A stretch of DNA of 64,000 bases from Polytrichum commune (Eukaryota; Streptophyta; Polytrichopsida; Polytrichales; Polytrichaceae). Each line of letters opens with the position of its first letter. Position 1 is the stretch's first letter. A program made the position numbers and the translations under genes. The DNA lies in contig OX485809.1 of assembly GCA_950295325.1 (NCBI GenBank), positions 17,296,001 to 17,360,000 of the forward strand, in the 5' to 3' direction. Below, piece by piece: positions 20,103-49,764 of the stretch. Under the pieces are notes generated by a model. It was not told the origin of the DNA, ran no database searches, and was given only the letters and a program-made list of their open reading frames with translations.

Positions 20103-21919
20103 AACTACCAAATACGAGTGTGCTTCTCATCCATCCAACATCAAAAGAAAATTATAATTTTTTTTGAAAAAACTTGACCTGTCTATAGGTTTGTTGTCAA
20201 TTTGTCTTGAATGACCTTGATAAGGTTGATTCGGGGTCTCCAAAACTAATTCTAGCATCAAGTGAATTTTTTAAATACCTTTGGGTTGTATATTATTTTT
20301 AGGCTTTAATCTTGGATGAATGAGAGGTACGTTTGTATGTGACAATTTCCTCTCTCCCTCTGCATTCGTTTTGTTCTTTTTGTCTTTCTTTGTAGGGTCA
20401 TGTTTTATTATGAAAGTGTGTAAAATCAATCTCATTGTACGCTAACACAACTCTTTCCATATTTGGAGGCATAATCTAAAGCTTGGACAAACAGAGCACC
20501 ATCACCAAGTAAAGGTGTGCAGGTGCCATTCATCAAAAAAATTATTGGATACAAATATTTGATTGGTGTGTAGTTTGATAAGGATTGAAAAATAAAATTA
20601 ATATAAACAAATGTTCAAAAAAGTTTAAACTACATCTTCAAATTTTATTAAATATCCCACACTAAGCAATGAACACAATTCAGGTAAGGAATCAACAAGC
20701 ATAAACTTCCAATTACTATAAGTAAATCATGGGAGAACCAAATTTTTTGTTGTAGATGCTTCATTGTAGAATTGTTGATGCACCACAAGTTTCGTCGTGT
20801 ATATTTTTATTGGCAGATGTTGGAGAACGTCGAAACCTAATTGAATCATGTCCATATACCTTGCCCACTGTCAAGACAATGACACATGTTCGATCCTCTT
20901 TGTATTGCAAGAGGCAAAGGACATTTTCATGGTTGCTAACTTGAAGTATAACACGGCACACAAAGCACAAAATTTGGATGTCCTGGATCTCAACGAGCTA
21001 GTGAAACCCCGGGTACACAACTCTCATATTATACGCAGGGGGCATTGGATTAAAAATAACTTAATGAACGGATTTGATAAAAATTTATATCAAATTATAC
21101 AAAAACAAAAGGACCAAAAAGTTGGGTAAAGACCAAATTAAATAAAATGAGATGTATAATAAGTCGGGTTGCATATTTATTTACTTTTTAAAAACTCCAC
21201 AACGTATATAAAGAACTGAAACACCTAACTATGGCTATGCAAAATTTTAAATGATCCACGCGAGCAATTGCCTTCAATTAAAATTTAAAAAAATTGGCAA
21301 TGCTTTGTTTACAATAAATGAATCTTAACTTTTTTTAATCCAACAAATTGGGTAGTTTAACCTATGGTACGTGTATTAAAAGAATTCATATAATTAGGCT
21401 TATAATGCAATTATATGCTTTCAAAAATATTCATTTCTTATAAACAAATTACATACTCACATTCCTTGTTAGAAGGGCTACATAACTTATATCATTTTGA
21501 GATTGGACTAAAATGCATTATAAGTGATTATAATTAGGGCCATATAAAACATAAGTTGCGTACCCGGGTGTGAAACATGTATGTGCAAATTAATCTCAAA
21601 TCCTCGTTCCTTCATTGCATCATATATTTGGACACACCAATGCTTTGCTTCATTGCATTGGCTTGCTTCCCAAGCATGGAATGTGGAAATGTCATGCATT
21701 CACCTGGGTGTGTAATACTTCCATCATTAAATGCTAGAGGAAGACCTACGGGTGCCATTGGGCAGGTGTATGTGCATCACTGCAATTTATAATATTGAAA
21801 TGGTAAAACCTTAGTAATGGGGTTTACCTATGAGTGGTTACTACATTACAAACACACCAAGAAAAAACAATGACATTGGTAAAGTAATGATAAGGCAAGG
21901 AAGTGGACATATGAAATGA
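20103..21919. other. Intergenic, unassigned
   Basis: AT-rich. A 93-codon plus-strand frame at 20848-21129 and a 71-codon frame at 21577-21792 are the longest; neither resembles a known family or shows exon structure. Probably decayed transposon DNA next to the element starting at 21920. Confidence 0.4.
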
Positions 21920-22804
21920 TCCCACCCACCCTCCCGGGTTTTGAAAGGTGCATGGATATATCAAAGAATGGTTTGGCCACAACATATAAGCATCGAACAA
22001 TATAAACATTGAAAACTGCACACAACATATTGCCAGATCTATTGATGGAGGATGAGTAGGACACATCCCAGTTTGCTTTGCTAGCCCAAAAAATAGAGGT
22101 GGTATTAAAACTGGCAACGAAGACGCACTGAGCTTTGAGGCAGCGCGTACGATTATTGGACCAGAATCCAATCCCAACACCAATACCCACCTTTTTCTAG
22201 CTAAGTTTAAGACCTCAAACACAAATTTAAGCACTCTGGAGGATTTCAACAAAATCATACAGTCATCCCATGCAAAAAAACAAAAGAATACGATGGTCAC
22301 AAATAAAATACTCATTAGGAGCAAAGTTGGGCCTATGTGAGGCCTCTAGTTTTAGCACCTGCCCATCATGGATTTGCATGCTGCCCAAAACACTCGAGTG
22401 TTTTTGCCTTGCTGGACGATGATCGCATACGGTAGGAAGTACACAGGTCCTGACCAATCATCGTTGAATGCCCGCAATCGTAGCTGGCAGGAACAGAACG
22501 TGGGAAATTTGTGTGGCTCAATGCTTGTATCATTTGAATCTCCAGTTTTTGTCCCTCCTCAGCGACATCCCCCGCGCTCTTGTTTGTACTTTTCTTGGAG
22601 TTGGAGGAGTTGTTTCTGAGGGTATGGTGACAACATTACACTTCATTAGGACCAGAGAGATTGCATAGTGATATATAGGGATACATATCAATAGGAGTAG
22701 TATATAGGGATGCCTAGTCACTACTTGTGATGGAAGAACGATTGAGTTACAAAGTCTCCGCAACTATTGCTCGATAATATGCTCCGCTTATAAATCGAAG
22801 TCGC

Positions 22805-25800
22805 ATGCTCCATGAGCAAACGCCAAAATCTGAGTTTCCTAGAATACGTGAGAGTGGTGCAACAAACATTGATGTATGGATTGATGGATCTATATATCCT
22901 CATCATCCTGGCTCAAAAAAATGCCCGAGCTTCCGTAGTGTCAGTGACTTGCTAGAATTTGTTGGGGAAGGCAAAAAAAGGTTGCTAGGGTATGTTGAGA
23001 GTCTGTCTGCATGCAATGAAAGTAACCTAAAATTTTGATTAGATGAAGCGGAAAGAGAGAATTGCAACTTACAAGCAAATGTGAGGAGTCTCACAAAGAG
23101 TATCGAATAGAAGAATCGTCTGCTTCATTTTAGTAGAGATGAGTTACTTGCTCGACAGATTGCCGAAGGAAAAAACCAAGAGACTTTAGTATCCATCGAG
23201 TTGTTAAAGAGCGAAGTCCAATCTTTGAAAAAAGAATGTCACTGTTTGAACGTTTTATCTGTGGAATGTCTTGACCGCATGAACGCCTTTTCGAGTCAAA
23301 ATGAAGAGAGTTGCTTGCAATTAGAAATCAATTATTGGATTGAAATTGAATCGTTACGTGAGAGTTACGAGGATAAAATCAATTTTCTAAAATTTGATTT
23401 GAAAATAACAATTGCCACACTCAGGCGAAGAGAGCAACGATTACAAAATTTAACAAAAACACCCTATGGGTACCGTACTACCATCTGCATGAGGAAGGAT
23501 TTGTCTTGTTTAGCCTCAACCGGAGGTCAGGCAAAGCGTAGGTTGAGATTATTGTGTTCTGTCATTGCTCCCACGACAACAAATCACGTTCAAACTGTGA
23601 ACCAGGAAACTGGATCAAGGCAACGTTTGCGTGGAGATAAAATAGTACAGATTCAAACTGTCAAAGTCCTTGCCTCTTTGCTCTCAGAGATTGAAGTAAC
23701 ATCGATGTGTGAGTCTTCAAAACTGAGTGCAGTTGGCATCCGCATGTCTAACTTCTACTTAGACAAGATAGGAGAAAATGTTGGAGCAAACGAGATATGT
23801 GAGACCATGGATTGGAATGGTATTACTCAAGCTGGCTACGCTATAGTTTACAAGCAGTTCAAAGGTGCGACACGAGCTGCAAGACGAGGCCTTCGCATCG
23901 GATGCCTTCCGAACCCTCATCAGATATCGCTTGCCAGATCGATGCTTAACTTGAAATTGAGTGAGTATGTCGGGAAATACTATTCGATTGTAAGCACACT
24001 GGAAGTCACACCACCACCGAAATCAAAGTCTAAGGATCTTGTGAAGGTTTCACTAAACGAATTCAATTCAATCTTTGTTGATGTTGAACAAGTGCAACGT
24101 ACTATGGTGGAACTGTACAAAATAACACCATCAGGTAATCACCAAACCTCTTTTTGTTAAATGCTTTGAATTTTCTCAATTGGGTCAATCGTATGTATTC
24201 TCTCAATCAGATGCGTTTGTCTGTTTCATGAACTCTACGTATGCTAGACTAAGTAGTGATTATGCAACTTTGTTGAATGCATGCACGCAGACGTTAACAA
24301 TGTCAATTTTACGTTGGTTTAATTTAGTGATTTTGCACTGTTTTTAAAATTGAATGGGAAGCCTTTAATATTTGTACTCAAGCTTGATGAAGCGGAGATC
24401 ATATATGGGCAGAAAATGGAAAGAGTATCCATCACGTTAATGAACCGGGCCTTAGATAGCACCATAGACTTTAACAGTGAGCGATACTTCTCTGTACAAT
24501 CGGAAAGAGAAATCTGGCCCATTGCATCATTTCAGGTGCCACAAGAATCATACGAAATTCTCAAGTGGGTTTTTGATCAGACTCATATCCCAAGTTTGAT
24601 TAAATTACAAGGTGAGGGTCAGTTGCTGAATGTTCCAGGAATTGGTGATTTCTCTATCGAGTGGCATCTTGCCGCTGACATGAAAACCATAAAGTGTGTT
24701 TACGGATTGAAGCACGGTGCCAATAGCTTACATTCGTGTATCTACTGTTGCCAAGAGCGAGTAAAATCAAGGATTGGCTCAATATCAGATGTTGAAGTTG
24801 CAAGCCATAATAGATGCAAACACTCTTGGAATGAAGGTTTGTTCTAAAAAAAAATCTCAGCCAAACTTCTAACAGGTGAAGCCGCAAAAGAACGATGGAG
24901 ACCAATCTTTGCAATTCCACTGGATAGAGTGCACATTTGCACTTTGAACGGGCTAAATAGAATCATAGAGAAGATAGTCCATCTCCATTTCATCCATATC
25001 TGGACCATACGTGATGACGCACTGAGAAAGTCAGCTATAAGAGAAATGGAAAGAGCAGTCTCGCTAACAGGTGCTCACGGTGGCAACATGACCATTTTCA
25101 AGAATAAAGACCTTTTTGGTAAAAGCAACAACGTGCCTAATAAACCGTCATTCAATGGAGCTCATGCCCTCAAACTTTTCAAACTAAATCCAAACATTCT
25201 AGGCAATCCACCCAGAAAACTTTATGTGGACATTGTGAATGTTGAAAAGAACACATTAAACAAGGGTCACGCCAAAAGAGACCGACTTGAGTTGTGGCAT
25301 GCGCTTGACGCATTGCAACCTTACTTCACGGGATTGCGGTTGACAAACGACCAATCAACAGGAGATTTCAAGCACAAAATTGATGCGTTTGGCCAGCTTT
25401 ACCTGAAGTGTTTTGGTGAGCATCAAGTGACCCACTACATGGTGAGACTGCTCTTAACCATCCTTTATTAAATATTGTTAGTTACTGTTTTGCAAGCACA
25501 AATTTCAACATCCAATGCAGTCAGTCAGTGAAACTCATGAGAATTAAATTCTTATAACATAGCATAGATTCTAAAATTTGTTGGAATTTTTTTATTAATA
25601 TCACATACTTTTAATGTCATTGCAGCATGTCTTCATCCACCATGCACCATATTTTGTGGAAAAATATGGCTCCCTAGCAGTGTGGAGCTGCCAGGGAATG
25701 GAGAATTCCCACCATGTTGCGAAGACTGCATACCAACGACATACACAACATTCAGGTGGAAAAAGAAAAAAAATCCTCTCATCCAAACATTCCAGCACTG

Positions 25801-25963
25801 GTATCGAATAATTGCGCATAGATTCCGAAACAAAGAAGTTGCCATTAATAATACTGAATTTGATTCATTACAAGGAGAGGAGGCAATTGCTGCAAGGCGT
25901 GAAGCATCTTTGAATTCTTTAGCTGCCTTACATAGTGCCTTGTGGCGCGCCAAGTGCACCTGA
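22805..25963 (+). pseudogene. RAG1/Transib-superfamily transposase, inactivated copy
   Basis: Reconstructed exons: about 22805-24134, 24291-25441 and 25626-25963. An N-terminal coiled-coil region (about 22960-23460) precedes a RAG1-core-like region. Catalytic candidates: Asp at 24386-24388 (VLKLDEAEI), Asp at 24677-24679 (LAADMKTIK), Glu at 25701-25703 (AVWSCQGMENS). Zinc-ligand candidates: two Cys in CIYC (24737-24748) and His at 25626 and 25641 (HVFIHH). Order matches RAG1 D600, D708, C727/C730, H937/H942, E962; the D-D gap is 97 residues against 108, D-to-Cys 20 against 19, and His-His-Glu spacing is identical. Lesions: in-frame stops at 23036-23038, 23108-23110, 24320-24322 and 24845-24847, plus a frame change at the A8 run 25766-25773, after which the frame reads QTFQHWYRIIAHRF like the RAG1 C-terminal helix. 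Long uninterrupted stretches imply recent death. Confidence 0.72.
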
Positions 25964-26123
25964 GTAAGAAGTAGGTGGGTCCCAAATATAGAGCCAAGTG
26001 AAGTTTCTCTGTAATCATGAAAATCATTATTTTCTATTGTCTTGCTCTAAATTCAAGTTTCTTAGGTGGTAGAACCATAGAAACTGTAATCGTCTTCTCT
26101 TTTCTAGTATTGACTTTTGTAGC

Positions 26124-26801: not shown

Positions 26802-27229
26802 CTATATATGATCAACACTCTAGCAATATTGGCTATGGTGCAAAATATTTAAGTGCTTTCATGTGTAGTGGGACTTAACTCATATGAATCCAATGGAAGG
26901 CAACCCATGTACAATAAAATTGAGTGGCCACATACAACATCTACCTTAATGGGAGGCTTAATGGGCCCTTTAAAATATAATGCAAAATTCTTCATGAAAT
27001 ACATCATAACATTATTCATTTCTAGCATGAAGTTCTTTATCCATTAATGAGGACTTTGATAAGTGGTAGGATTACAAAAATGGTCATCTTGAGAGAGTTG
27101 GGCGTGTCTTGATCATATCTATGCTTACATTCAAGCTTAGTCATGTCTAAATGCATCCTCTTGTTTAGAGGCCAAACCATTCTTTCCAGATATATATGTT
27201 TCCCTCAAACCCCGGGAGGGTGGGTGGGA

Positions 27230-28777
27230 CCCTCCCTCATGGAAAAACGTTTTCTACCATAACCAACACTATTCACAACTCAATGGACAACTCAAAGTAA
27301 TCATCAGAAGTTTATATACTATACTGATAAGGTATTGGTCTAGGTAAACTTATGTAGTATACCATACTTCATATCCATCTCTCACTTAGTCAAAAACAAA
27401 ATTGTATGTAATAGCTACACAAGCTAACCTCAAAGGCGTTTTTACTCAAATAAAAAATGCTTTGTATTCCAAACTTTCTTGTAGAATATCTAAGCAAAAT
27501 ACACACTACTTGTAACAAAAGATGAGATACAAAATTTAAGAATACTGCCAAGTTTATCAAGGGTTTGCCTCACATGTGGCCATATCACCAACCAAATCCA
27601 CATAGAGGGTTAGTAGCGTACACGAGATGAATAACAACAGAGCCCAATTATTATCTATGTCACACAATCAACCATGGTATAACCAAATACTTTGTATCAA
27701 AGAATACACATCCCATTCATGAATATTCTACTTATTATTTAGCCATTCGGACCATGTGTAACCAAAGCTTGTGGTAGGTTACACACACCAACCGTTTTTA
27801 CTAGTCCACACCACTTACACTAATCCTAAAAAAATTACTTAGGGTAAGCGACCACTTGCGACTAAACCTTCAAAAAAAGGTGCTCATGTTTCTCTACACT
27901 TAATATAGGATTAGGTAAAGACATGCACCTTAGATGTGTTAGGTAACTTTTGTCGAACCCTAAGGTAAATTTCTTTGGGCTGATATTTTGATACCAAGGC
28001 TAGAGAGAGAGAGAGAGAGAGCCTGGAGGAATGGAAGTGTCAACCCGGAAGAAGTTTTTGTATCCATTTGTGGTAGTTTTTGCCTATTGTTTCACCTCTT
28101 CTAACAATGCCATAGTAGCTATGGTAATTAACGTAGCTACATTAACATAGATGGACCCAAATGCATTTGAAATCCACTTTTTTTTTTATGGAATTTGTAT
28201 ATAGCCATGACATATGATAATTCATTGCTATTTATGGGCATTTTAGGTATGTTTTTATGTATTGTTGCTTGGAGATTAAGTATGAGCTCTTCAATTGAAC
28301 ACCATTTACCATTGTGTATGCATGGTAAAAAGTTAGGATTGTTTAACATTTTTAATGTTTATTTCCTTATGTGATCCACATAAATGAAACATGCATTGTT
28401 GGATGCATTGAAACATGCATTGTTGGCTGTACAGGGGTGGAGGGATTGCAGTGACCTAGCCAAAGCATCCACCTCGAGTTGAGCTGCGAGGCCACTCTGT
28501 GGAGACGGTTGGGCATTGATCGCCTGGGCGACTCTATCGGGGAACCGAGAAGCATTCTAGGCCTCCTTGCAAGGTCTGAAGAAGCATGCTGGGCGACCAA
28601 GGAGGGCCGTTTCCTGGGAGCCTCGATGTCGGGCTAAGGCAGGGCCAGCTCACCGGTGGACAGGGGGTGTAGGAGTCATGGGAAAGGGTGCGAACACTGG
28701 GACAATTTCAAAGGGTGGAGTTTTGGTTAGTATAGGGTTGGGGTGCTGAGATTAGGAAGTGTGGGCAGAATTTAAGG
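27230..28777. other. Intergenic, unassigned
   Basis: Contains a (GA)n run at 28003-28021 and a locally GC-rich stretch at about 28430-28740 that breaks the AT-rich background and could be a retroelement scrap. No gene recognised. 28770-28777 (ATTTAAGG) is the left target duplication of the next element. Confidence 0.4.
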
Positions 28778-32551: not shown

Positions 32552-35500
32552 TCATCTAAAGCGCCCCTTCATAGATGCATTGAAGAGGAATAAACAACTA
32601 AGGAAGCGAAAAGAAAACGACAGAGAATTAGGTTGCGAGCACCAACCCGTTGATTCATCCTCCACAATATTTGCATGCGTTCGATGAGGTGATGATCCCC
32701 CGCCTGGTGAGTCGGTCCCGCGGGCGCGATCCTTCACATCGCTGATCCTCTCCAAATTTGAATTGGACAGCTGCAAGCTGCGGGAGCTCTCTGTCACCGA
32801 AAACTCACAGCTCCGCATCGAGTCCGCAGAATCCAGCTTCATCGACCCCTGCACCAACTTCTCTCTTGTCATCGACATCGACCCACCATCTTTGTTGATC
32901 TTCTTCCGGTTCTGCTTCGCTGTGTGGTGCCACCCGTGGATCGCCTCTGCCGTTTTGTCCTGAAATATCGCCTTCTTGTAATTCGTGCCCATCTGACACA
33001 TTGCAGCAACTTACATATGACAAGGCTGTTCTAAATCCCGAATCGGCCTATGCAAGGGTTTGGCCCATCCATTTTAGTATGACAAAGGCGGTTTTAATAT
33101 CCTGGCACCATTCTTTGAACACGTAATTTGAGCTTTAAGAAAACTTGGGTGACTCTATGCATAAGCTCTCAAACTTGCGTTTTAGCCAACTCGCTGCGAA
33201 TTTGATGTCAGGACTTTAAGCATAACCTCTAATATTACAATGACTGTTGGAGATGCTAATGGCTGATCTCCTCTAATCATTCCAACTGTGTAGGTTATCA
33301 TTCGAGGGTTCGACACACACCTGTGTGACAAGGGCGTACAGAGGGAGAGTGCTGTAGCTACACAAGATTTGCACTGCCGTCCTGCAGACACAAAAGTTTG
33401 CAACCTGTAATTAGGGGTTCTAGTTCCTGTAGGGAAGAAATTTTGAATAGGACATTTGATGGTTGTTCTCGTCATCATTAAAATCATTCGAAAGGTTGAA
33501 TTGCACACCCGTTGCATATGTGGGGAAAGAATTCTCATGCCCCAGGTATGAGAACATGCATGCGTGTGTCTCTACAATCATCTCAAAATGCAAGTGATTT
33601 TCGTTTCATGGTAGCTCAGTGTTGGTACATATATAGCCTTCAGGTTTGATATCTTGTCAGCACTAACTCAACATTTAGTGAATGATTATTCAACATTGAT
33701 TTTTCTCACTATTCAACCTCTTCATGTCTTGCAACTTTGAAATATAGACACAAAAGCTTAGTGTGATAGGCATGGTTTTTTAATAAAAAAACTTTGAATT
33801 TGAATGTGAAACAATTTTTAGAGGTTTGTGATAATGTGTATGTTGCAAAACCAGCAAATTACAGATAATAGACCACATGAAGATTGCTACATGAAGATGC
33901 ATGTAGTAAATGGGGGAGAGGTTAAGTTGCTTGTGATTATACCCCAAGACCAAGCGGACAATGACCATTACAGATTTTCCCATAACGCATGAATCGAAGC
34001 CGAATGTTGTCTGCAAGATCAATGTCCAGCACAGTACTTTAGGGTATAAACATAGGAGTTACTATAGCAACCTTAATTGAGCATTCGAACTGGTTTCCAA
34101 AATAGATCTCCCTGTACACATTGACCAGCTTTCAAAGATATCTTACCAAGATCCAGAAGAAAAACGCAAGCTCAAATGCATTCTGAAACACAAATACACG
34201 CACACACAAAGAAAAATAGTACAAGTATCAGGTGGATGAAGGTATAAGGAATTTTGACTCAAATGCCGTGCACTGGTCGGGCCAAGATATTTTGCTGACA
34301 TGTCTACAAGGGGGTTACGGGGTAGGTTAACCAACTTTCCACTAGAGAACGTAGTGCAATAATAGGTAGGGTCCAATAATATCAAAGTAATCCAATAATA
34401 TCAAAGTAAAAAGTTATAAATTGTTTGAAAAAACTAGGGCATTGAAAATGCATTTTGAGAGCATTATAGATACATTCCAAGAACATTCATCAAACATGCA
34501 GAGTATCCCATGAATATGCGTATTACTTCATAGCTCCCTTGAAAATACTCCATTATCGCACGTGACCCCTTAAATTATGGGGGAGTGACCCCTGTGCATG
34601 TGAAATCTTGATTGGATACAAGGAGACATATTATGAACTGTATTAATGACCTTGCCATGGCTTGACCACTACGTCCAACAATAGACACGTGTTGGCCTAC
34701 CACAAGCTGTAGTACGCACCCAATACCTATTGAGCCGCCTACTTACAACAACCCATGGCAACAATGATCGGGGAGAACCCGCAGTTAGTTACAAATGAAC
34801 CGGTTGAGTTTGAGAAACAACCGGTTGAAGTTCAAGACTGCAGGAAAATTACCGATCATTTTAGAGGAATTTAAAGAATATACCCCAATTTAATGAAGGA
34901 AAACCAGAGGATGTGAACATGTAACCGGTTGGACTTGCAAACACTAGGATTTCAACCGATCATGCCCAAAAATCTCCCCGATCACTGCATGGCAGGGCTC
35001 CTTGCATCCGATACCTAGTACATAATTATAAAGCTATGCATGCACATTTGCAGATGTAATTAGTACCTGGAAGAGAATGAAGTGGATGACAATGAGCAAG
35101 ATTTGGGGTTTGTTGAACCAGAACAGGGAGTCACGGGCCTGCACGTGAACTTCGCCAATGACCTCATGCAGCTGAGCGGTCTCCACAGACAATTGTTGGA
35201 TGATGTGCTGCAGTTTGGTACCTATCACCAGAATCATCTGCAGGCCTTGATCCATCACCTAATTAGTTCCGCAATCAATAAGCCTGCTGATATTCTTAAG
35301 CCTTGTAAGGAGTCAGGATTCTAAGTTCTATTCTACCTTTAGCAATACATTTTCAAGGTTGATGTCCTTGATGGCATGCACGAATGCCGCTGGCCGGGCA
35401 TAGTCGAGAGGCAAGGTGTCATTGGTTGACATCTCTTTGTTGCCAATCTCCGAACGCCAAAGCATCTACCATCTACCAAGATTCAGTTGAAGAGGTTATC

Positions 35501-38500
35501 CAGATCTTCTAAGAATTAATCTGTTTGCGCTGGAACGTAAATAGGCTACTCAAGCATATGAATTAGAGAAGTAAACACCATAATCTTCTGTTTGTCAGAC
35601 TCATAATATTACATTCTGTCAACCGTTTGAGTCTGCAAAAGTGGTATGACCGTCATCTTCAAAACAACTGGTGGCAGTCTCTCATTAGTCAAGACTCATT
35701 GTTGCCGATCTTCGGACACGAAGCATTGTGCCTATACCAAGATTCAAATGAAGAGATTATCCAGATTAACTAAGAATTATTCCATTTGCACCAGAACCTA
35801 ATAAGGCTACTTAAGAATGTTATGAGAATAGTAACATCATCATCTTCTGTTTGTCGGACTCATTATTTTACTTTTTGTTAAAGTCTTTTATGAGTCTGCA
35901 AAAGTGGCACAGCTGTCATGTATAAACAACGAGTACTGAATTGCCGAACATGTAAGGGATTAAATAATCGCGGTGGAACTCATCACTTACCACGACAGGC
36001 AAAAATGCAATCCAGAAGTACGTTAACCACCCTGCAGGAGACAGAGGGTATGGCCACACACGGATATCAATTATGACCTGAATTTTGATGATGGACAAAT
36101 CGAGTTTATTAAATATGGAGAAAATTGTGAAATGAATTTGCTTGAATTTGCTGAAAAGAAAAACGAAGGGTGGCACTCACTATCGACGTTCAGAAGAAGA
36201 AAGATGATCACAAACACCCATAGAGAGGCACTGCAATCACCAATTCCATTTCCAATTTAGGAGACACATGGTCTGAGCAGCATCGGAATGGAGGAGCAAC
36301 GTCAGAGAGTACCTGATTCAATACTTAGTGTACAAGAAGATTGAGAATTTTCAAAAAACAAAAGTTGCATTCCACCTCGAGCCTAACCTGATGCCTACAA
36401 CCACTTTGAAGTCGTCTTCCATGGAGCGTCGCATGTAGGAGTGGAAATCAAATGTGGGGCTCAGCTTGTGAGTCTGCGCCAGAAGAGGTTAGGCAAGGTG
36501 TCAGAGGAGGAAATTGACAACATTCGGCGTTCACAAAGTACCAAAGGAATGCATGCAAGCGTAAAGAACTAAACTACCAAGAAGTTTAAAAAAATTCTTA
36601 CGCTGATGAATCCTATGCGTAGAGTGAGGTAGTCAGATTTCCCCACCGCCACTCCAAATTGCCGGAAAAAACTAATCTGTACGCCCAGCCGCCAAAATCC
36701 AGGAACAAGAACAGTAAGGTGAAGGAGCATCGAACTGGATCCGAAGGAAAACAGCTGGGATTGAGCATCGAGGATAAAGTAAGTGGGCTTACAATCCAAC
36801 TCTGAATTGATTTGCTGGACAGAGGATGAGCCTTGTGAGCGGCGATAAATGTTTTCGTGCGATCCATTTTGAATGTCTCTCTCAATGCTGCAATGGCACA
36901 CAATTTAGGTCAAATCATCAAACAGGTCGGTTGTAATGAGAACCACAAGCAGAGACATTCTCTGAATCGACCGCTCTTTTTATTGAAAACATTCCGAAAT
37001 CACACAAAAACATGCTTACCACTGGTATGGTCATAGCCTACCGCCCGGGTTTCCACTTCCCACTTTTTCCATCCATGCATCTGCGAAAGAATTGCAACCA
37101 TTCTCATCAGAGACTAATTGCAACTGTCTGCCGAGTATCAGTACAAGAAACATATGGATTGGGTGGAGAGTCCCCAGACCTTGTAGAAGCCAAGGAACAC
37201 GGTGGCACAGCAGTAAACGACGTGGACAACCGTCATTACGAAGATGAAGATGTGAAGCTGGTGGAGACCCTCCAAGGAGATGATCGGCACTTTACCCTGC
37301 CATGTTACCCCGACCGTAGAAGATAATTCTTGTCAATTGAATACATGTTGGAATTCAAATGATTCTCGAGGTTACATAGGCCATTGTCTCTGAAGTGGAG
37401 GAATGGATGCACGAATTAAACCAATGCAGATTAGATAGACTATCCCAATCGAGGCTTTCAATCAAAAACTGTAGCCCTGTTGCTTCAAGTGCCAGAAGTA
37501 GCACATGAAAATGCAAAATTTGGCTTTAACCCCTGCAAACTGCAAGAAAGGTGAATTCTCAAGCTTACATAGGCCCCCATAGGCCATCGTCTCCGAAGTG
37601 GAAAATAAATGCAGGGATTAACCAATGAAGCTGTAGACCATCCCCATTGAAGCTTTCAACCAAGAATTGTAGCCCAGTTTTCTTCTTGTCAGACGCAGCA
37701 CATGCATATGCAAAATTTGGCTTCAATGAGTTTGCCCCATGCAAACTGCAAGAAAGGTGAATTCTCAAGGTTGCATAGGCCATCGCCTCTCAAGTGGAGG
37801 ATTGGATGCAGGGATTAAACCAACGAAGATTAGATAGACTAACCCAATGAAGCTTTCAATCAAGCACTGTAACCCGAAGGAGGACATGTATATTCAAAAA
37901 CTGGATAATTTCAATGAGTTTAAATTGAATACATGTTTGGATTTATGCAAGAATTTGAAGATATGTCCATGGTTGACATAGCCTTACCACCGGACATTTC
38001 ACTGGCCCCGCCTCGTTTAACCACCGTTCAATTCGAGCTAACAATTTCCTGCCCCCTGCAATTGCAACATTAATGCTCTCATTGTGGACAAGTTTTTGGG
38101 ATCCCCACTCGAGCAGCCTTCGACGACTATGCACTGCGGGTGGTGCAGCTAATTCCGGTGCAGCCGCGCCAGCATCCTCGGATCTGGGCACGTAGGGACA
38201 AGGCAACATGAACGGAGCCCAATCTTCGGGCATACACAGGCTGGTGATGGAGGTTTGGAAGACGGTGAGAAGAAGGGAAATGAAGCCCATAATCATCAGC
38301 TCTGCACCCAAACCACAGCCAAATGCGGCTTCAATGAGGTTAACGCCTGCAAACTGCAAGAAAAGTGAATTCCCCAGGTTGCACAGGCTATTGCCTCCGA
38401 AGCGGAGGAATTCATGCAGATATTAAGCTCATATAGCTTTAGACTATCCTGATTGAAGCTTTCAACCAAGGCTTGTAGCCCAGTTTCTTCTTGTCAGCAC

Positions 38501-48093: not shown

Positions 48094-48798
48094 TTTTTTT
48101 CTTTCTAGTGTGATTCTTAACCCAAAAGGACCACATGCACATCGAAGTCAAATTCACAACAATTTTTAGGCATTCAATTAGGGACACAAAAGTGGATGTC
48201 AATTTAGAAATTGTCTCAATCGTCTTCACGGATTGAATATACTAGTGGTTCGGGCATTGAAATTTCATGCTTATACCATTGAAGAACACTTTGACCATTG
48301 AGATTAGGTTGTGAAAACCCAATGATGGAATAGTCAAGGAGGGGGGGGGGTGAGGTTATGAGTCTAGTTTGTTTTTAGGTATTTTGAAGCGTTGTAGGAT
48401 GAGGTTTTTACATGGCCCTTGGAAATTGGTTCAACCCCATGCCAAGTATTTCTCATGAACATACAATATGTTACATTCATCTAGTGAAATAGTTGGAAAC
48501 CGTCTATAACCTAGGCTTACTTGATATTGGGGTTAGTTTCCAAAGACGTAGTTGAACCTATTTGAGATGAATACTTCAATAACGAAGGGTATGTGTTGTG
48601 GTATTCATGAATATCACTATAAACGTAACTACAACTACTCCAAAAAAAAAAAGTAAAAGAAAAGGAAATGTTTCAATAAAAGCTAACAACATGCATAAAA
48701 GCATGTCTACTTTTGACATTTTCTTTTGCTTTTGTTCCTTTTACTTTCCCAGTAGACTTTTGCTTTGATATACTTTCTATTTACCTACCCTATCATGT

Positions 48799-48830
48799 TG
48801 TATATATATACATATATATATATTCTCTCG
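48799..48830 (+). promoter_or_regulatory. TATA-rich core promoter of the cyclotransferase-like gene
   Basis: A (TA)n run at 48800-48823 followed by CT-rich 'tattctctcg' lies about 55-75 bp upstream of the preferred start codon at 48877. This is the expected spacing for a TATA-driven promoter with a short leader. It is inferred from position and sequence only. Confidence 0.5.
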
Positions 48831-48876
48831 TCATTCCATTTCAACTCCACTTCCAACTATATTGCATTGTGAAGAA

Positions 48877-49764
48877 ATGGCACAAACTCACGTGCTCACG
48901 CTCTGCAAGTCTTCACCTTTGGCATGGTCCCATAACATTGTGTGCAAGAAAATCGATGCGAGGAACAAACAAACGCCCAAGATTACGAGCAAGATGGTGC
49001 ACTTCAACACGCCACCCATCAAGGCAGCGCAATTGCAATCTCCTCCAAGAGAATCCACCTTCACTAAACCACGTGAGCATCATTCGGCCTCGAATGACAA
49101 AGCCACAATTTTACACCACTTGCTGAAGCAGTCTCCACCCACAACAAGAAACACGAATACCAGCAATTCAACACACCTGAAACGCATCGCATTCATCTAT
49201 GGGGCCTTGGCTCAGGGCAATCCCTACCATTGGGTCCTCAAGGTTGCGATCGCCACAGGTCACGCAAGATACCTGGGTTCCGCAAAAACCGCAAAGAGAT
49301 TCTCGTTTGCATGGGGGCCCTTCCTCCTAAACCGCTCGGAACCATTGGCGAGAGCTCAACACATGCAAGGGGAGCTTTATGAACTTGATGCGGTTGCCCT
49401 GAACTTACTTGATAATGTTTACGGCGTGACAGACCAACTTTTCTTACGTCGGACAATCGACGTGACTCCAAAGAACATTGCATTGTATGAAGACATGGAT
49501 GTTGCAACTCCGAACTGTGACGACCTAGCATTGCAAGTGGAAGCATATTTTGGAGATCCTTTGTCCACCGTAGGACTTTCCACCTTCATGACATGGTGTC
49601 CCCCCGTGGCGCATTTGAAGAACGGGGCGGTTGAATTTCTGCATAGAGAGGATGAGTTACGTTGGGAGGGAGTGCTAAATGAGCGTGTGGAACGTTGGAT
49701 CGAAGCACAACAGGCCACCAACACCAAACGTCACATGATAATCAAAAAGTCGAATGTTACGTGA
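48877..49764 (+). CDS. Gamma-glutamylcyclotransferase-like (AIG2/GGACT fold) protein
   Basis: Intronless, 295 residues. The ATG at 48877 (gaagaaATGGC) has a better plant start context than the in-frame ATG at 48862. The first ~100 residues are basic and Ser/Thr-rich, possibly an organelle transit peptide. The fold then starts with RIAFIYGALAQGNPYHWVL, the family's YGTL-rG-pn-H glycine loop, followed by YLGSAKTAKRFSFAWGPFLLN, then GELYELDAVALNLLD and LRRTIDV. In human GGACT the catalytic Glu82 follows 'LDDF'; here the equivalent is LDNVYG, with Tyr where Glu is expected. The enzyme may be inactive, or may use another acid. The active family releases 5-oxoproline from gamma-glutamyl compounds. 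The frame is open and not obviously decayed, so the locus is probably a functional gene. Confidence 0.75.
   Translation: MAQTHVLTLCKSSPLAWSHNIVCKKIDARNKQTPKITSKMVHFNTPPIKAAQLQSPPRESTFTKPREHHSASNDKATILHHLLKQSPPTTRNTNTSNSTHLKRIAFIYGALAQGNPYHWVLKVAIATGHARYLGSAKTAKRFSFAWGPFLLNRSEPLARAQHMQGELYELDAVALNLLDNVYGVTDQLFLRRTIDVTPKNIALYEDMDVATPNCDDLALQVEAYFGDPLSTVGLSTFMTWCPPVAHLKNGAVEFLHREDELRWEGVLNERVERWIEAQQATNTKRHMIIKKSNVT

Follow-up and report, generated by a model that had tools for sequence, protein, structure and literature searches.

The CMCT clade of transposons, as described in PMC12730594, comprises CACTA/EnSpm, Mirage, Chapaev, Transib/RAG1, Plavaka, ESTA and Lanisha. According to this description, the clade is marked by D, D and E together with two cysteines and three histidines, with C(2)C and H(3-4)H placed between the second D and the E. 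Most of its lineages end in 5'-CA..TG-3', and the clade is given target duplications of 2-5 bp; EnSpm elements have CACTA termini and a 3-bp duplication (PMC12730594). RAGL elements carry convergent gene pairs, end in CAC and make 5-bp duplications (PMC7204232). Lanisha appears in PMC12730594 through a cited title (reference 35), in which it is proposed as a novel superfamily of cut-and-paste transposons. Spy, which is grouped with PIF/Harbinger and ISL2EU in the same description, is relevant here because of its target sites. According to PMC9435367, there are 39 potential Transib-like proteins in plants, and a pelagophyte alga carries a RAGL element; thus, occurrence in plants has a precedent, and RAG1 relatives outside animals are already in print. 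Among the papers listed for plant RAG1-like and Transib elements, nothing was closer, and among those listed for Lanisha as a transposon there was no paper besides PMC12730594.

We analysed a window of 64,000 nucleotides of Polytrichum commune, 17,296,001-17,360,000 of C7 in a genome of 408 Mb. The feature in this window is likely a copy, now decayed, of an autonomous two-gene CMCT cut-and-paste plant transposon with blunt integration, and by the features tested the family is a distant cousin of RAG1 that lies outside Transib/RAGL. The features of the window copy are collected in Table 1. Its catalytic and zinc codons are GAT at 24386, GAC at 24677, TGT ATC TAC TGT at 24737-24748, CAT at 25626, CAT at 25641 and GAG at 25701. 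The initial annotation had placed the residues at D 24386, D 24677, C 24737/24746, H 25626/25641 and E 25701, and all of these positions are correct. The frame of exon 2 consists of open stretches of 174 and 207 amino acids parted by a single in-frame TAA (24845-24847). Intron 2 begins with GT at 25442, and the exon with His, His and Glu lies beyond it in a different frame.

Table 1. Features of the element copy in the window (positions are those of the window)
Feature	Position	Strand	Relation to other copies or signals
Probable left terminus (CATTAGGAG...)	22313..22333	+	9 bases identical to the L014/L018 terminus
Transposase exon 1, conserved N-terminal region, with in-frame stops	22805..24134	+	40% identity to L014 exon 1
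Transposase exon 2: D 24386, D 24677, C 24737/24746, H 24932	24347..25441	+	55% identity to L014 exon 2
Transposase exon 3: H 25626, H 25641, catalytic E 25701	25626..25987	+	acceptor AG 25624-25625
Gene 2, convergent with the transposase gene: what is left of exon 2, an open frame of 225 aa	26124..26801	-	46-52% identical proteins

Comparison with L014, a relative elsewhere in the genome, revealed the decay of the window copy. The matched part of exon 1 (22877-24136) has two stops, with a donor GT at 24135, and exon 2 has one stop in 362 positions compared, in frame at 24845. In exon 3 the first 50 residues are 72% identical; after a frame change near 25770 the identity is 53% in a second frame, which contains a further stop. 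The window copy is thus a pseudogene, a decayed member of a repeat family: exons 1 and 2 contain stops, an AG is missing where the relatives have their intron-1 acceptor, exon 3 changes frame and no right terminus was found. Position 22313 is the probable, not proven, left terminus of the window element, to judge from its match to other copies; its distance to exon 2 is 2.0 kb here and 2.1 kb in L014. The initial annotation had confined the feature to 22805-25963, which proved too narrow, as the element reaches further on both sides, to the probable terminus on the left and to gene 2 on the right.

An inverted repeat at 21920-21959 and 27190-27229 was considered as the ends of the element and rejected, as it belongs to another high-copy repeat. 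Its left arm had at least 40 scored matches among 253 candidates, and it was inside longer shared repeats in the three that were inspected. The arms of this different repeat (TCCCACCCACCCTCCCGGG), at 21901-21978 and 27090-27242 of the window, stand on either side of the element, inverted relative to each other, and mimic terminal repeats.

The exon 2 protein had 43 matches in the genome, which were merged into 39 loci, several of them with long open frames. Eleven cores were extracted from 12 fetched copies and the window, L012 (deleted) and L019 (frame change) being omitted. Exons 2 and 3 are free of stops in seven of the 11 cores (L014, L015, L013, L011, L017, L020 and L022), so that the intact paralogues which the initial annotation had hoped for do exist as intact-looking copies elsewhere in the genome. 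Seven of the 11 cores were aligned, with the single stop of L018, L016 and the window copy each written as X, and L011, L020, L021 and L022 were kept out as near copies of others. The aligned relatives are 53-70% identical to the first row. In the numbering of that row, D14, D111, C131, C134, H195, H364, H369 and E389 are invariant in all seven rows, including the window copy, and the same residues were recognised by eye in the four cores outside the alignment. Furthermore, both genes are under purifying selection, with pN/pS of 0.24-0.41 for exon 2 (nine pairs computed) and 0.29-0.49 for gene 2 (21 pairs), ratios that carry the caveat of near saturation of synonymous sites between subfamilies. 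The conserved pattern of catalytic and zinc residues exceeds chance, because it is invariant in the relatives and accompanied by this low ratio in exon 2.

The transposase gene of the intact-looking relatives has three exons, and the subfamily of L017 has one more. The acceptor AG of exon 3 is missing in four of the 10 copies examined (L011, L013, L016 and L022), and the splice site was taken from the remaining six, which have the acceptor CAG. The four copies show CAA or CAT at this place, and their frames are mostly open. L011 and L013 are 97% identical, indicating recent spread. A trio of element copies at C2:23.16-23.30 Mb, with equal match scores and stop counts and alternating orientation, suggests local duplication, not transposition.

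The family shows the residue signature of the CMCT clade, with C2C, H4H and the third H in seven of seven rows, and it has CA..TG termini, but a duplication of 2-5 bp is not found. D, D, E with two C and three H is common to the whole clade; therefore, these motifs show the clade and not the RAG1/Transib family. A finer placement was sought by profile comparison. The family profile was aligned by hhalign to the mouse RAG1 core with a score of 35.2 (E=8e-4), above the maximum of 31.9 in 250 shuffles. The alignment is colinear over 367 columns with 20% identity, and its hhalign probability of 25% is weak and was obtained with one RAG1 sequence. When the acceptor codon of intron 2 was still in the join of exons 2 and 3, the score was 28.9, with a maximum of 25.7 in 300 shuffles, and dropping this codon raised it to the value given above. 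The second D, CxxC, H4H and E share columns with RAG1, and the first D lies outside the alignment. The two histidines are 5 residues apart and the second is 20 residues from the Glu, both spacings being equal to those of mouse RAG1 as aligned. CACTA tnp2 from the same genome scored 19.7-19.8 against the family, which is within shuffles (mean 17.2, sd 3.0, n=300). Thus, the profile comparison, which used a single RAG1 and a single type of CACTA, favours RAG1 over CACTA. The genome also contains at least 150 scored CACTA matches among 643 candidates, and the Plavaka model PF18759 has ten matches in it, mostly short and with a stop, which is another CMCT lineage in this plant.

By sequence or profile, no named family or solved structure gave a credible match. 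None of the seven members had a credible match in Pfam, where Transposase_21 (PF02992) was hit by 0/7 at E up to 10 and the KDZ and hAT transposase models by 0/7, and NCBIfam gave nothing credible for the family. No PDB chain of RAG1 or Transib was matched by the family profile. The RAG1 model PF12940 had no match in the genome, but the control genomes gave none either, and mouse RAG1 had a single match in the genome, which at E 3.7 is not credible. Exon 1 showed no credible similarity to RAG1 289-585 (E 0.23), and exon 1 of two relatives had no Pfam match. RAG1 alone finds HzTransib (6pqn) at E 0.003, and a profile of RAG1 plus the family no longer finds it. Single-sequence AlphaFold2 models had pLDDT of 29 (exon 2, without the Glu exon) and 36, too low for use. 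In viral and prokaryote collections, scanned with two short peptide patterns each, no relatives were confirmed. What the initial annotation had called a RAG1/Transib-like transposase is upheld as a DDE transposase of the clade that contains RAG1, with a profile score above shuffles; the motifs that it used are those of the CMCT clade at large, and CAC ends and 5-bp duplications are absent. It was right about the RAG1 order of the triad and zinc positions and about the RAG1-like offset of the Glu. Its expected match to RAG1 or Transib structures did not appear at the level of profiles, and KDZ or hAT, which it had named as alternatives, found no support.

The transposase is accompanied by a second gene. 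Gene 2 had 48 matches at 40 loci in the genome. It lies within 25 kb at 23 of the 39 transposase loci and is downstream and convergent in 23/23; at the other 16 no gene 2 match was found within this distance, and two of these, L012 and L018, keep pieces of gene 2 exon 1. In L011 and L013-L016, proteins 46-52% identical to that of the window are likewise encoded convergently. The subfamily of L017, L020, C5:15.49 Mb and C4:47.68 Mb has gene 2 6.6-19.8 kb off, in longer elements with extra internal DNA. The distance between gene 1 and gene 2 is 7.7 kb in L017, 19.8 kb in L020 and 6.6 kb in the C5:15.49 Mb copy, and the opposed CATTAG ends around both genes are 13, 25 and 12 kb apart, respectively. 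Paired CATTAG ends in L014 likewise enclose both genes. For L019 and L022, which are related to this subfamily, gene 2 was not matched within 25 kb.

Gene 2 consists of two exons, of which exon 1 and the start of exon 2 are BAH-like (score 32.7, E=5e-5, probability 66%). Column shuffles reached at most 22.4 in 200; five of the seven alignment rows were used, and BAH was first suspected by eye. This BAH-like exon 1 was found in the relatives and not in the window copy. Searches of Pfam and PDB with gene 2 gave no BAH match, and its members had no Kelch or PHD match. The genome itself encodes BAH domains closely resembling plant SHL/EBS, which, like the MLO-type and AIG2-like gene pieces of the window, point to a plant host. 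A ubiquitin-like C-terminus of gene 2 (PF00240, E 0.014, one of seven members) was rejected, 10 of 200 shuffles having reached its score (five rows). RAG2 has a PHD finger and helps RAG1 to choose or tolerate a chromatin target, and a BAH-like protein beside a recombinase recalls this finger. The convergent gene with a BAH-like N-terminus is what this analysis adds, and by analogy it would parallel the pair of RAG1L and RAG2L.

The ends of the element are defined by its long copies. CATTAG...CTAATG is present at 14/14 ends of seven long copies (L011-L014, L018, L017 and C5:15.49 Mb), and a genome-wide pattern search found 116 ends of the CATTAG type and one of the reversed pattern. Among the 100 ends listed of these 116, there are 21 opposed pairs within 1 kb, 20 of which form a set of MITEs. 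They are mostly about 415 bp long and are non-autonomous derivatives with the same termini. In this set, which was picked by the CATTAG pattern, 40/40 ends begin with CA, 39 of them with CAT and one with CAG. A CAC terminus was found at none of the 14 long-copy ends and none of the 40 MITE ends.

Integration leaves no target-site duplication. The two flanks of the MITEs agree in one, two or three bases in three, two and one of the 20 pairs, respectively, and in four or more bases in 0/20; hence, a 5-bp duplication is also found in 0/20. Insert-free sites tell the same. When the flanks of L052 were joined, 38 of 40 listed insert-free sites matched at exactly 80/80 bases; these 40 were scored of 138 candidates and are related repeat copies with 88-90% identity. 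The joined flanks of L057 had 16 matches, 13 of which cross the junction; 11 of the 13 are equal in length and two are shorter by 1-2 bases. L012 has a twin empty site that differs by one base at the junction. L018 is flanked on either side by the four bases AAAC. However, this copy sits inside a tandem array whose own sequence includes AAAC, and compared with the array unit zero bases were gained. The other long copies have no common flank of three or more bases. As DDE strand transfer is usually understood, the absence of a duplication would mean that the two target strands are attacked at directly opposed positions.

Judged by these footprints, the relatives appear to be mobile. The gene order, the conservation, the termini, the lack of duplication and the non-autonomous derivatives with the same termini can be read directly from the genome, and we propose the following mechanism. 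Intact-looking relatives consist of two convergent genes between the short inverted repeats CATTAG...CTAATG. Gene 1 encodes a DDE transposase with a RAG1-type site (C2C, H4H) predicted to bind zinc. This transposase would pair both CATTAG ends and excise the element, its D, D and E acting through two-metal chemistry. The 3' ends would then be joined bluntly to directly opposed target phosphates, and zero target bases would be duplicated. The product of gene 2 may help to choose or tolerate the chromatin target, in the manner of RAG2 beside RAG1.

The family could instead be a true plant member of the Transib/RAGL superfamily with diverged ends. Several points lie in this direction: the RAG1 alignment is colinear, exceeds every shuffle and outscores that of CACTA; the H-H and H-E spacings equal those of RAG1; the two genes converge, as in RAGL (PMC7204232); and potential plant Transib-like proteins are in print (PMC9435367). 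The family shares with RAG1/RAGL (ProtoRAG) the arrangement of D, D, CxxC, H4H and E, in both order and spacing, and with Transib the catalytic and zinc signature by which PMC12730594 defines it. However, RAG1/RAGL and Transib have CAC and a 5-bp duplication where the family has CATTAG and none, and the partner RAG2L has Kelch/PHD, whereas the partner found here is BAH-like with no match to either. The family transposase is split by introns and has no credible N-terminal similarity to RAG1, as exon 1 showed; the RAG1 family model is unmatched (in the control genomes as well), and the mixture of RAG1 and family loses HzTransib. Transib differs further in that the family has a second gene and that 6pqn is unmatched by family profiles. 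We therefore regard membership in Transib/RAGL as improbable. CACTA/EnSpm, which is abundant in this genome, has the same clade signature as the family, but the family has no PF02992 match, scores within shuffles and makes no duplication. Spy, by its cited title, is a DNA transposon that, like the family, makes no target site duplications.

Lanisha (Maumus, McDaniel and Carey 2020, Repbase Reports) deserves more weight, and we give somewhat less than an even chance that the family belongs to this superfamily or to a close branch of it, which is compatible with a decayed CMCT transposon as the preferred explanation. PMC12730594 puts Lanisha in CMCT, calls it similar to EnSpm and gives it the same motifs, so that the likeness, compared by this description alone, extends to the CMCT motifs; 2-5 bp duplications are stated there for its clade, but none is found in the family. 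A plant CMCT lineage that belongs to neither CACTA nor Transib would also suit it. Its authors reportedly work on a moss genome. If the family is Lanisha, it is known and not new. Only tentatively, and with more doubt than in the case of Lanisha, can the family be raised to a plant superfamily that is sister to RAG1/Transib, with the convergent plan of recombinase plus chromatin reader and blunt integration without duplication; if this were true, the plan would be older than animals or would have evolved twice. A pair of host genes domesticated from such a transposon, no longer a mobile element, would agree with purifying selection on both genes. It is contradicted for the family as a whole by the many copies with inverted termini, the near-identical recent pairs, the MITEs and the insert-free related sites, the window copy itself being broken, and we consider it highly improbable.

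A decayed copy of a mobile two-gene CMCT transposon, which we prefer, bears on the origin of RAG, where the question is how a Transib-like transposase came by a partner that reads chromatin and what controls the joining to the target. The plant family would offer an independent natural comparison, with its catalytic and zinc plan, its BAH-like convergent partner and its zero-base target spacing. Blunt integration also bears on what sets the length of the duplication in CMCT. Should the family be Lanisha, a second gene and an absent duplication would be added to the descriptions of that clade as given in PMC12730594.

Other genes are present in the window. Fragments of the MLO family (PF03094) lie at 32552-33010 and 37943-38422 (minus strand), apparently as exons of one or more MLO genes, and a gamma-glutamylcyclotransferase (AIG2-like, PF06094) is matched in the frame at 48769-49764 (plus strand).
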